32,664 bases of DNA, taken from the NCBI GenBank assembly GCA_009840525.1, contig VXNP01000048.1:1-32664 (forward strand), given 5' to 3'. How positions within the stretch are numbered: position 1 is the first letter of the stretch; every line of letters starts with the position of its first letter. This stretch comes from Gammaproteobacteria bacterium. Its GTDB lineage: Bacteria; Gemmatimonadota; Gemmatimonadetes; Longimicrobiales; Gaopeijiaceae. Below are positions 16,218 through 21,728 of the stretch, one piece after another. The notes under the pieces were generated by a model. It was not told the origin of the DNA. It did no database searches and saw nothing but the letters and a program-made list of their open reading frames with translations. Both the position numbers and the translations under genes were made by a program.

Positions 16218-16370
16218 GCGGGCCAGGTTCATCCGCGGAAGCGGCTGGAACCCGATTTGAGCGAGACCCCCGGTCACGACTCCGGCAACGGCGGGTTGGC
16301 GAGACAGGCTGCGGATTGGACGAGATCAGCTGGGGGCTTGAGTATCGTCTGTCTGACCCCTCTGTGGCGT

Positions 16371-16392
16371 GTTGCAAAACACAAAATGCAAC
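16371..16392. promoter_or_regulatory. Palindromic operator 1 upstream of the XRE/ImmA-like gene
   Basis: A 22-bp inverted repeat: GTTGCA, a ten-base spacer, TGCAAC. The second copy follows after five bases. The position between the P450 stop and the regulator start suggests binding by the XRE protein. Confidence 0.6.
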
Positions 16393-16397
16393 AATAT

Positions 16398-16419
16398 GTT
16401 GCCTTTTCGATTTGGCAAC
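16398..16419. promoter_or_regulatory. Palindromic operator 2 upstream of the XRE/ImmA-like gene
   Basis: A 22-bp inverted repeat: GTTGCC, a ten-base spacer, GGCAAC. It has the same outer GTTGC/GCAAC arms and spacing as operator 1. The centres are 27 bp apart, allowing cooperative binding of two dimers. Confidence 0.6.
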
Positions 16420-16583
16420 ACTCTGCAGACGGGCCCGCTGCACAAGAGAAAGCAGCACGGCACCGGCGGCGGATCGGCTGCTTCGGACCCGGCTACAACC
16501 AGTCCTGGCTTGGCTACAGCCAGCCGGCGGCCAACGGGTCCGGGTTGCCCAACATTCCCCGTTCTCCAGGCCCAAGCATCCGA

Positions 16584-17822
16584 ATGCGACCAACTGTCCG
16601 GATTCCCCGCCTGACCTCCCGGATTGCCGCCCGTCTGAGGGCGGCCCGCAAACGAGCCGGGCTGACGCAGTATCAACTGGCGGGAGACCTGGGGCTCAAC
16701 CATCGCCAGGACGTCACCCGCATCGAAGATGGGCAACGCTCCCTCACCGCACAGCAGCTCATCCTGGCGATGGACCTTCTCGGCGTCGATCTGGACTACT
16801 TCACCGACCCGTTCCGCCTGGAGGGTGAAGGGGAATTCACGTTCCGGACGGGTCCGGAGGTGGCGAGCGCGGCCGTCGACGAATTCGAGCGCAGAGCAGG
16901 GGGATGGATCGCGATGTACCGGGAGTTGTCCCGGGAGCTGGGACGCGAGCCTCGATGGCTTGAACTGAAGCTCTCGCTGACGCGCCACTCCTCCTTCAGT
17001 GACGCGCGGGACGCGGGTGCGGCGTTCTCCGAGCGCATGGAACTCGGAGATTGCCCAGCGGCGGCGCTACGGTCGGTGCTGGAAGACCGTCTGGGGATTC
17101 TGGTGCTCGAGGTGGATGCCCCACCCGGAATCGCGAGTGCCGCTGTCCGCGCTCAAGGAATCAAGTGCGTGCTCGTCAACCACCATGAGCCCGAGGGGCA
17201 TCGGAACTACGGCATGGCGCACGGACTGTTCCGCCTCTTGACCTGGGATGCAATCCCGCCCGCCCGAGTGGAATCCGTTCGCCTGCCGCGCCGCGGGAAG
17301 CGATGGCTGGTTGCGCGAGTAGCCGAGAGCTTTGCCACCGCGCTGCTGATGCCCTGGCCCGTTCTGCGGCGGCAGTTGGGATTCGAGCGGGCGCGGGAAG
17401 GCGTCGTGAGCCCGGGAGAGCCGATGCGCATGACCGCAGAGGACATGATCGCACAGGACAGGGGTGAGCGGGAGTGGAGTCGCGTGACGCGATCGCGCGA
17501 TCTCCCCGCTCGTTTGATCGAGGGTGCCGCGCAACTCCGGGTCCCGGTGGAGGTGTACGTGCGCCGCCTCCGCCGCCTCTACCTGCTGTCCCGAGAGCAA
17601 GTCGACGCGCTCGCTGACCGGCTTCCGATCGCGAGTGGTGCGGCGCCGGACAGGGAAGCGGCGATTCCTACGTTCAGTGCGGAATTCGTCCGGTGTGTCG
17701 CCGATGCCCTCGACGCGGGGAATCTCTCCGTGAGGCGAGCCGCCTCCGTGCTGGATCTATCGCTTCCGGAACTGGCATCGCTGCTCACGCGCTACGGTCA
17801 CGAGGCCGATTTCGAGCCGTAG
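16584..17822 (+). CDS. XRE-type regulator with degenerate ImmA/IrrE-like domain
   Basis: 412 aa from the ATG at 16584. The frame is open from 16257, but that part covers the two operators, so it is unlikely to be coding; no strong ribosome-binding site is seen. Residues 15-68 are an XRE helix-turn-helix (RKRAGLTQYQLAGDLGLN, then VTRIEDGQRSLT). Residues about 100-280 resemble ImmA/IrrE metallopeptidases (LGILVLEVD, IKCVLVNHHE, NYGMAHGLFRLLTWD). The expected zinc motif HELFH reads H213-G-L-F-R217, so both the glutamate and the second histidine are lost. The C-terminal part has two predicted helical repeats (VEVYVRRLRRLYLLS; VRRAASVLDLSLPELA). It probably represses its own promoter; the role of the dead protease is unknown. 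Confidence 0.8.
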   Translation: MRPTVRIPRLTSRIAARLRAARKRAGLTQYQLAGDLGLNHRQDVTRIEDGQRSLTAQQLILAMDLLGVDLDYFTDPFRLEGEGEFTFRTGPEVASAAVDEFERRAGGWIAMYRELSRELGREPRWLELKLSLTRHSSFSDARDAGAAFSERMELGDCPAAALRSVLEDRLGILVLEVDAPPGIASAAVRAQGIKCVLVNHHEPEGHRNYGMAHGLFRLLTWDAIPPARVESVRLPRRGKRWLVARVAESFATALLMPWPVLRRQLGFERAREGVVSPGEPMRMTAEDMIAQDRGEREWSRVTRSRDLPARLIEGAAQLRVPVEVYVRRLRRLYLLSREQVDALADRLPIASGAAPDREAAIPTFSAEFVRCVADALDAGNLSVRRAASVLDLSLPELASLLTRYGHEADFEP

Positions 17823-19982: not shown

Positions 19983-21728
19983 ATGGCTCCCTCCCCTACG
20001 CGGCAGGACCTTCGCTATCAGGCTGACGAAACTCCCGGCTGGGGCGTGTCCTTCGGGCTCGGGTTCCAGTACATCCTGCTCAACATCGCGGGCATCGTCA
20101 TCACGGTGGCGATCGTGGTGCGGGCCGGGGGCGGGAGCGAGACCTATCTGACCTGGGCGGCGTTCGCGGCGCTGATCGTGTGCGGCATCTCGACGATGAT
20201 TCAGGCGCGACCGCTGGGCAGGATCGGGGCGGGATATGTCCTGCTGATGGGCACCTCGGGCGTTTTCATAGCGGTTTCGGTCGCGGCGCTGCAACTGGGC
20301 GGGCCCGCGCTGCTGGCCACCCTGATCGTGGCCTCGTCGCTCTTCCAGTTCCTGATCTCGTCGCGCCTGCCGCTGCTGCGGCGCTTCATTACGCCGACGG
20401 TGGCGGGCACGGTGATCATGCTGATCGCGGTCACGGTCATGCCCATCGGCTTCGACCTGCTCTTCGTGGCGCCGGAGGCGGCTGCGCCGGCCGCCGCTCC
20501 CCTGACTGCCCTGACGACCATCGTGATCACTGTCGTCATCATCCTCCGCGCCAGGGGAGCCCTCCGCCTCTGGGGGTCGGTCATCGGGGCGGTGGGCGGC
20601 TGCCTGGTGGCCGCGGGGTTCGGCACCTACAACATGGAAATCGTGGGAGAGGCGCTCTGGTTCGGGGTACCGGCGGCGGGCTGGCCCGGCTTCGACCTGA
20701 GCCTGAGCGCCGGTTTCTGGGCCATGCTTCCGGCGTTCATCTTCGTCACGCTGGTCGGCGCCATCGAGACCATCGGCGACGGCATGGCGATCCAGCGGGT
20801 TTCGTGGCGCGAGCGGCGGGCGACCGACTTCCGCGCGGTGCAGGGTGCGGTGGCGGCCGACGGGGTGGGCAACCTCCTGTCGGGTCTTCTGGCCACGGTT
20901 CCCAACACCACCTACTCGAACAGCGTCTCGATCGTCGACATCACCGGCATCGCCGCGCGCCGGGTGGGGATGTGCATCGGGCTCATCTTCATCGCCCTGG
21001 CGTTCTTCCCCAAGGCCACGGCGGTGCTGCTCGCCATCCCGGACCCGGTGGTGGGCGCGTACATCATCGTCCTCATCGCCATCCTTTTCGTGCTGGGCGT
21101 CGAGATGGTCACGCAGGAGGGCATCGACTACCGCAAGGCCACCATCATCGGCGTCTCGTTCTGGATCGGGTCCGGTTTCCAGAGCGGCGGCATCCCGGCC
21201 GAGTACTTCGGCTGGGCGGGTTCGCTACTGGAGAACGGGATGACCTCGGGCGGGCTGACCGCGATCCTGCTCTCGGTCTTCATGGAGCTGACCGGGCCGC
21301 CGCGCCGGCGCATGCAAACGAGCCTCGATGTCGAGGCGCTGCCGAAGATCCAGGACTTCCTGGGACGATTCGCGTCCCGTGCCGGAATGGACGCGGAGAT
21401 CGGGCAGCGGCTGGACCTCGCCGCCGAAGAGACCCTGCTGCTCCTGGTCGAGCAGGCGAAGGACGACGACGCGCCGGGCGAGCGGCGGCTGCGCGTCACG
21501 GCCCGTGCCGACGCCGGCGGCGCCGAACTCGAGTTTCTGGCGGTGACCGGCGAGGGCAACCTCGAAGATCGCCTGGCGCTGCTCGGCGGCCTCTCGGCGG
21601 AGCTTCCGGTTGAGCGCGATGTCTCGCTCAGGCTGCTGCGCCACCTGGCCACGTCGGTGCGCCACCAGAAGTACCACGACACGGACATTGTGACAGTGCG
21701 GGTGGACCCGGTGAGGGCTAAGGCCTGA
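19983..21728 (+). CDS. NCS2-family nucleobase permease with extra C-terminal domain
   Basis: 581 aa. Inner-membrane uracil/xanthine-type symporter. Residues about 1-440 have some 12-14 membrane segments. Segments such as GIVITVAIVVRAGGG, VRAGGGSETYLTWAAFAALI, MLPAFIFVTLVGAIETIGDG and NLLSGLLATVPNTTYSNSVS match the conserved NCS2 core (in NCS2 the ETIGD and NTTYS segments help bind substrate). Family members are about 430-480 aa. The extra part from residue 444 (MQTSLDVEALPKIQDFLGRF) is soluble, with RLDLAAEETLLLLVEQA and DTDIVTVRVDP, resembling the start and end of an RsbW-like GHKL ATPase domain, although the N-box Asn is missing. The 190-bp gap before the start holds no gene. Start: ATG without a clear ribosome-binding site. 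Confidence 0.88.
   Translation: MAPSPTRQDLRYQADETPGWGVSFGLGFQYILLNIAGIVITVAIVVRAGGGSETYLTWAAFAALIVCGISTMIQARPLGRIGAGYVLLMGTSGVFIAVSVAALQLGGPALLATLIVASSLFQFLISSRLPLLRRFITPTVAGTVIMLIAVTVMPIGFDLLFVAPEAAAPAAAPLTALTTIVITVVIILRARGALRLWGSVIGAVGGCLVAAGFGTYNMEIVGEALWFGVPAAGWPGFDLSLSAGFWAMLPAFIFVTLVGAIETIGDGMAIQRVSWRERRATDFRAVQGAVAADGVGNLLSGLLATVPNTTYSNSVSIVDITGIAARRVGMCIGLIFIALAFFPKATAVLLAIPDPVVGAYIIVLIAILFVLGVEMVTQEGIDYRKATIIGVSFWIGSGFQSGGIPAEYFGWAGSLLENGMTSGGLTAILLSVFMELTGPPRRRMQTSLDVEALPKIQDFLGRFASRAGMDAEIGQRLDLAAEETLLLLVEQAKDDDAPGERRLRVTARADAGGAELEFLAVTGEGNLEDRLALLGGLSAELPVERDVSLRLLRHLATSVRHQKYHDTDIVTVRVDPVRAKA

Follow-up and report, generated by a model that had tools for sequence, protein, structure and literature searches.

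A conserved, catalytically degenerate XRE-M78 regulator and dispersed intergenic elements carrying its putative operator

Introduction

In the IrrE/DdrO and ImmA/ImmR systems, an active protease acts on a separate repressor, and CapP/CapH likewise consists of two separate proteins, a protease and an HTH repressor. Two kinds of dispersed intergenic sequence are also relevant here: the stoperators of mycobacteriophages, in which a repressor's operator is dispersed in intergenic places of the genome, and the REP/BIME or MITE repeats, which are short inverted repeats between genes, close to gene 3' ends.

The key precedent for an XRE regulator with a degenerate M78 domain is PrpR. In the actinobacterial PrpR/RamB proteins, an XRE HTH is joined to an IrrE-like fold that does not conserve the HEXXH residues, and PrpR is reported to have a 4Fe-4S cluster and CoA in its cavity; the accessible part of the source makes no mention of dispersed operator arrays for PrpR (PMC6765138). 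We analyzed a regulator of the same arrangement, likewise fused and without the conserved HEXXH residues, encoded in a 32,664-nucleotide stretch of DNA (the window, meaning the whole stretch that was analyzed). A DUF2083 region, present in the PrpR/RamB type, was not matched in the window regulator up to E 1 (the HMMER filters drop most hits above about 0.1).

Results and Discussion

The regulator and its predicted fold

The regulator gene and its parts are located as follows.

16584..17822, + strand: XRE-HTH/degenerate M78 regulator of 412 residues, with HGLFR and with Ala244 in place of a conserved Glu (open frame from the ATG at 16584, alignment, AlphaFold2 model)
16623..16808, + strand: XRE HTH, recognition region HRQDVTRIEDG (Pfam PF13560/PF01381, alignment)
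17085..17369, + strand: M78/IrrE-like domain (PF06114 match; residues 132-358 resemble CapP, PrpR and IrrE in fold)
17220..17234, + strand: HGLFR replacing HELFH (alignment, codons)
17313..17315, + strand: Ala244 replacing a conserved Glu, the presumed third metal ligand (alignment)
17370..17483, + strand: clade-specific insertion, about residues 263-300, with low pLDDT in part and pN/pS of about 1

The N-terminal XRE HTH scored above the Pfam cut-offs (PF13560, 36.3 bits; PF01381, 34.2 bits), and the M78/IrrE-like domain (residues 168-262) matched PF06114 at 19.2 bits, below the cut-off of 22. An AlphaFold2 model, built from a 20-sequence alignment, had a mean pLDDT of 83.7 and a pTM of 0.82. 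For residues 132-358, the best fold match was CapP (7t5t, Z 11.2, 166 residues, 2.8 Å), followed by PrpR (6d2s, Z 10.0, 164 residues, 3.5 Å; 6cz6, Z 9.8) and IrrE (3dte, Z 9.8, 160 residues, 3.9 Å), while the HTH matched ImmR (7t8i, Z 10.7), CapH (7t5u, Z 10.2) and many others. These Z values come from VIA-align and count as middling for a model of 412 residues; with Foldseek alone, the model had no match at E ≤ 0.001. The predicted structure retains the M78 fold.

The window regulator thus resembles CapP in its C-terminal half and CapH in its HTH, but it is one fused protein with the active site lost, and a Pfam scan of 13 window proteins showed no CapP/CapH-type family. It shares the M78 fold and an ImmR-like HTH with IrrE/DdrO and ImmA/ImmR, and differs from both in being fused and in having no active-site residues. 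The likeness of the fold to CoA-binding PrpR makes a sensor role plausible.

Loss of the active site

The first-pass annotation described HGLFR in place of HELFH, with the catalytic Glu and the second His lost in an otherwise open frame, and for the window protein this description holds: HGLFR occupies residues 213-217 (codons CAC GGA CTG TTC CGC, 17220-17234). It overlooked a further loss at residue 244, 27 residues past the second His, where Ala stands in 8/8 HGLF proteins and Glu in 11/11 HELFH proteins of our alignment A2; from the spacing in IrrE, we take this Glu to be the third zinc ligand. The window protein accordingly has neither an HExxH motif with its catalytic Glu and two His nor the third-ligand Glu.

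A homologue search of 147 relatives gave matches in 28. The genus comprises 11 genomes, eight of which carry the regulator gene (the window's copy and seven orthologues, 76-93% identity). Two others, G001 and G005, have a HELFH relative instead (59-62% identity), and neither type was found in G007, which is 67% complete. Gly214 is present in all eight HGLF proteins, and the catalytic Glu is gone in all; the codons differ among the orthologues (GGA, GGT and GGC). His213 is retained throughout. Position 217 is Arg in G000 (the window's genome), G006, G008 and G009, and His in G002, G003, G004 and G010. Aligning close homologues, the check proposed with the original description, therefore extends HGLF to all eight proteins but HGLFR to four, so that the loss of the Glu is general and that of the second His is not. 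G004 and G010 are not independent, since they are identical over their 343 shared residues; the G010 copy is in two pieces cut by contig ends. A sequencing error at HGLFR, which had been named as a possible refutation, is excluded because Gly214 recurs in all eight orthologues through three codons and Arg217 in four.

Homologues with both residues intact, named as a second possible refutation, do exist, HELFH and the downstream Glu being kept in 11 of the 12 other proteins in A2, but they form a separate lineage. The exception, G117 (L055; 34% identical), reads RALFR and has none of the four active-site residues, apparently through a separate event. Alignment A2 leaves out the more distant homologues (G137, G100, G104, G118, paralogues of about 30% identity and HTH-only matches). 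The suggested search for an active ImmA paralogue in the window's genome turned up no close one; the regulator had no other match there at E ≤ 0.001, and the single further M78 domain found, with HEAAH intact, belongs to a distant protein (L066; G000:C132:8401-8643). On sequence grounds, the window gene is a conserved pseudoprotease regulator. As a separate observation, the public titles of closely related loci are split between Gammaproteobacteria and Gemmatimonadetes (L031, L032 and L035 versus L033, L034 and L036), and one set must be wrong.

Two lineages in two slots

The HGLF gene lies between a P450 gene and CocE. In G001 and G005, the HELFH gene sits across CocE from this slot, and in G001 it adjoins a permease gene; the order in G006 is P450-HGLF-permease. 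In the window, a xanthine/uracil-permease-like protein is encoded near the regulator (19983-21728, + strand); its C-terminal part resembles HATPase_c_2 (25.3 bits against a cut-off of 27.4), an arrangement that would be an unusual fusion.

Within the genus, dS between HGLF and HELFH genes was 0.92-1.33, compared with 0.16-0.50 for flanking genes in the same genome pairs. This excess, together with the differing slots, led us to reject simple vertical orthology of the two types. We infer that they may be old paralogues, derived from an ancestral tandem pair by differential loss. No convincing remnant of a lost copy was found in either slot; the best match was chance-like (13 aa, E 0.001, 401-base subject).

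A left-flank tree of two neighboring genes, on which the sister relation of G006 and G005 rests, joined these two genomes with a support of 1.000 and then G001 with 0.998. The right-flank tree, in which G005 is missing, joined G006 and G001 (1.000). In the regulator tree, the G006 copy is the nearest among the HGLF proteins to the long branch leading toward HELFH, the position expected if HGLF descends from the ancestor of the genus.

The putative operator

Upstream of the regulator gene, we identified a palindromic double site (16370-16420) within a longer inverted repeat.

16370..16393, no strand: operator 1, TGTTGC-N12-GCAACA (pattern search upstream of the regulator gene)
16397..16420, no strand: operator 2, TGTTGC-N12-GCAACA, 27 bp further on (pattern search upstream of the regulator gene)
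16357..16433, no strand: 77-bp inverted-repeat element holding operators 1 and 2, one of six loci in G000 with exact double sites, ending 150 bp before the start codon (alignment of copies)

Two sites within 2 mismatches arose in 11 of 100 shuffles; the pair in the window is exact and in phase. Among the HELFH relatives checked (10 genomes, G076 left out), all ten have TTGC-N12-GCAA, its start 29-57 bp ahead of the first codon as aligned or assumed, and a third half-site (TTGC) follows the 27-bp phase in five. The motif was not found upstream of the G117 gene, which is not of the HELFH type, or upstream of the eight other XRE-M78 paralogues readable among 17 loci. Of 96 control upstream regions, 10 scored; by their coordinates, these are regulators with other start calls or divergent neighbors sharing the gap. 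TTGC-N12-GCAA is thus very probably the operator of the XRE-M78 family, and we refer to it as putative. Autoregulation through palindromes is described as common in XRE regulators (PMC12565409).

The recognition region reads TRIE, SRIE or ARIE in the genus and mostly ASIE or AAIE in other genera; the site begins with GTTGC in the genus, and the eight other-genus sites with CTTGC or ATTGC. A joint shift of recognition region and site is only suggestive.

A dispersed 77-bp element

Exact double sites occur in all eight HGLF genomes (G000, 6; G002, 10; G003, 22; G004, 16; G006, 17; G008, 16; G009, 16; G010, 16; a 3-unit array scores twice), which rejects the idea that the operator is an oddity of the window's genome alone. 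Of the remaining 139 genomes, G034 alone carries an exact double site, a single one located at the promoter of its regulator, and a reversed control pattern matched in 1 of the 147 genomes. A closely related pattern, with up to 2 mismatches allowed, found nothing in G001, G005 or G007.

The aligned copies define a 77-bp unit, CCCCTCTGCACnGTGTTGC...GCAACACnCTGCAGAGGGG. Its ends read CCCTC...GAGGG, and the flanks show no conservation among 48 two-unit copies. The elements carry 2-4 operators at 27-bp spacing and range from 77 bp (2-unit) to about 130 bp (4-unit); copies with three or four operators keep the same outer arms as the 77-bp unit. Four-operator arrays in the 27-bp phase (L125, L139, L167 and L204) look as if the inner unit had been duplicated in tandem. 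The invariance of the operators in this alignment (A1) arises partly by construction, because the copies were picked by the exact pattern. A profile of 30 copies served as a check less affected by this bias; searched in the genus, with 150 scored per genome out of 160-527 initial candidates, it gave at least 12-45 matches per HGLF genome, both strands counted. Eighteen loci among the profile matches listed were fetched from HGLF genomes; 15 have both sites intact and three have one broken half, two of these being orthologous (L206, which is not a profile match, and L194, taken from the exact-pattern list, are left out of this count). The three element loci scanned had no Rfam match, and we dropped the idea of a known RNA family. 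A second dispersed repeat of about 60-100 bp was observed at L155:4449-4640, with copies in at least 10 of the 11 genomes of the genus, including G001 and G005.

As a dispersed short intergenic inverted repeat near gene 3' ends, the element resembles REP/BIME or MITE repeats, but it carries phased putative operators of a regulator family. As many intergenic copies of one regulator's putative operator, it resembles phage stoperators; unlike these, it is chromosomal and palindromic, consists of phased pairs in a 77-bp inverted repeat, and is tied to a degenerate protease. A literature search, with most subscription journals outside its reach, found no report of the 77-bp element or of an M78 regulator that is catalytically dead and has dispersed sites.

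Genomes lacking the dead regulator

The element profile found one relic each in G001 (43.6 bits) and G005 (52 bits), and in both genomes also the promoter of the HELFH regulator (E 0.012 and 0.001, respectively). At E ≤ 1, it found nothing in G007 or in seven HELFH genomes of other genera, their own promoters included, among the 150 of 160-787 candidates scored per genome; the relic counts are therefore lower bounds. The link between the elements and the promoters of other genera rests on the TTGC-N12-GCAA motif and its phase.

The G005 relic occupies the position of elements in G000, G003, G006 and G009 and has lost one base of phase and one half-site, while the G001 relic, with one half-site broken, sits where G003 and G009 carry 3-unit arrays. 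One intact operator is left in each relic, and neither genome has an intact double site. Since relics lie in both, elements were present in their ancestors; in these two genomes, which lack the dead regulator, most have been lost or disrupted. The co-occurrence of regulator and elements comprises one genus, with eight genomes having both and three without, G004 and G010 being identical over shared residues and G007 being 67% complete. G006, with HGLF and elements, groups in the left-flank tree (1.000) with G005, which has HELFH and no intact element. One old divergent locus that holds an element in G006 contains about 1.4 kb of different DNA in G001 and G005 instead.

Where the elements lie, and alternative explanations

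Gene context was assigned with a home-made gene caller for 59 loci in six genomes; four of the 63 fetched element loci, which have no exact double site (L124, L138, L147 and L162), were left out. Thirty loci lie in convergent gaps, 22 in tandem gaps and five in divergent gaps, with one inside a called gene and one at a contig edge, so that 57 of 59 are intergenic by our own calls. Convergent gaps make up 6,659 of the 54,663 intergenic bases (12%) in the fetched stretches, yet they are 31 of the 65 element gaps; divergent gaps hold 33% of the intergenic bases, but only 5 of the 65. When 85 loci, including the regulator's own, were collapsed to positions, 29 remained (13 convergent, 13 tandem, 2 divergent, 1 unclear), and the binomial probability of at least 13 convergent among 28 classified positions at the 12% background is 8e-6. 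Five of the 29 positions have elements common to 6-8 genomes, and nine are filled in one genome only, among the fetched loci. One divergent position is filled in all eight HGLF genomes; the adjoining gene resembles, by eye, a PQQ-type dehydrogenase. Locus L155 holds the element in G006 and G009 and is empty in G003, G001 and G007. The filled and empty junctions there are strongly diverged, and five other genomes match the left flank only.

We favor, as a guess, that the dead regulator serves as a roadblock or insulator at gene ends; a passive mobile repeat is the main rival. According to the latter explanation, an unknown transposase moves the elements, which are palindromic repeats of a selfish or REP/MITE-like kind; they came to resemble the operator by chance or through hijacking, and the dead regulator plays no part at most of them. 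The 77-bp inverted repeat with its CCCTC...GAGGG ends and without conserved flanks in 48 copies is what such a repeat would look like, and the patchy occupancy agrees with it, for instance at L155, which is occupied in G009 and G006 and empty in G003, a genome that groups with G009. The bias away from divergent gaps and the differences in presence between species also fit a mobile repeat avoiding promoters. Moreover, the element before the dead gene might be one more repeat insertion, since it ends 150 bp upstream and not within 60 bp as in the HELFH relatives. Against this stand the occurrence of the motif at regulator promoters of other genera, often phased by 27 bp as in the elements, the five positions common to 6-8 genomes, and the state of the sites, one of the two operators being broken in the relics of two non-HGLF genomes, compared with 15 of 18 loci intact in HGLF genomes. 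We regard the selfish repeat as rather doubtful.

A classic expanded promoter regulon, in which the regulator would repress or activate the genes adjoining the elements, draws on the autoregulatory-type site in the family and on the two divergent position clusters, one of them filled in 8/8 HGLF genomes. The gene context disfavors it: of the 28 classified clusters, 13 lie between convergent genes, a setting not expected to contain a promoter, and only 2 between divergent ones. We consider a plain promoter regulon improbable.

Selection on the regulator gene

A decaying pseudogene with a drifting M78 domain would be compatible with the pace of change, as the regulator gene evolves faster than its surroundings (pairwise dN/dS 0.22-0.45 versus 0.03-0.22 for five flanking genes, for pairs with G000 or G004 among six HGLF genomes), and with the insertion common to the HGLF proteins near residues 263-300, where the pooled pN/pS is 1.04. 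The corresponding values are 0.28 for the HTH, 0.25 for residues 76-160, 0.28 for the M78 domain and 0.38 for the C-terminus. No premature stop or frameshift was seen in the eight orthologues (the G010 copy being in two contig-end pieces); the in-frame TAGs in G009 and G003 are the genes' own stops, two residues earlier than the window's. These ratios indicate that the M78 domain is kept under purifying selection although the gene changes faster than its neighbors, which makes some relaxation possible. Together with Gly214 maintained through three codons, the intact frames and the M78 value render the pseudogene highly improbable. The first-pass annotation had offered two outcomes, reuse as a sensor or recent inactivation; the latter finds no support, because the loss is common to all eight orthologues, their frames are intact and the M78 pN/pS equals that of the HTH, and reuse is borne out in the sense of a retained non-protease. 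Least probable of all is a metal-dependent protease still working with altered ligands, for although His213 is kept in 8/8 and His217 in 4/8 proteins, Glu is found at 214 or 244 in 0/8, and the grouped genomes G003 and G009 have different residues at position 217 (His and Arg, respectively).

Proposed role and significance

Taken as a whole, a conserved, catalytically dead XRE-M78 regulator that binds multiplied operators between genes is the reading we hold to be reasonably probable, with the roadblock or insulator at gene ends as its weaker part. The family operator TTGC-N12-GCAA would have been multiplied into elements of 77 bp to about 130 bp, often between convergent genes. The dead regulator likely binds these dispersed elements, possibly as dimers on phased sites. 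Presumably its own proteolysis no longer serves to remove it, and binding would then be either constitutive or controlled by a ligand in the M78/GAF-like cavity. The best reading of the protein itself is thus a non-proteolytic, possibly ligand-gated regulator that would occupy dispersed operators at gene ends. Its role there may be that of a protein roadblock or an insulator guarding against read-through or supercoiling, comparable to the stoperators of phages, and not that of a promoter regulon.

In its fullest form, which we put forward tentatively, a retired ImmA/IrrE-type protease-regulator may have become a chromosome-wide architectural protein, its autoregulatory operator having been copied into phased arrays of 2-4 sites at gene ends, with regulator and arrays kept or lost together as a stoperator or insulator system encoded by the host.

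Among XRE regulators, PrpR is a precedent for a degenerate M78 domain. If the operator was indeed multiplied, the genus would serve as a natural experiment on the change from a local switch relieved by a protease to a genome-wide DNA-binding protein, and the pair of G005 (active regulator, no intact elements) and G006 (dead regulator, elements) makes this idea directly testable. If true, one class of bacterial intergenic palindromes would gain a likely binding protein.
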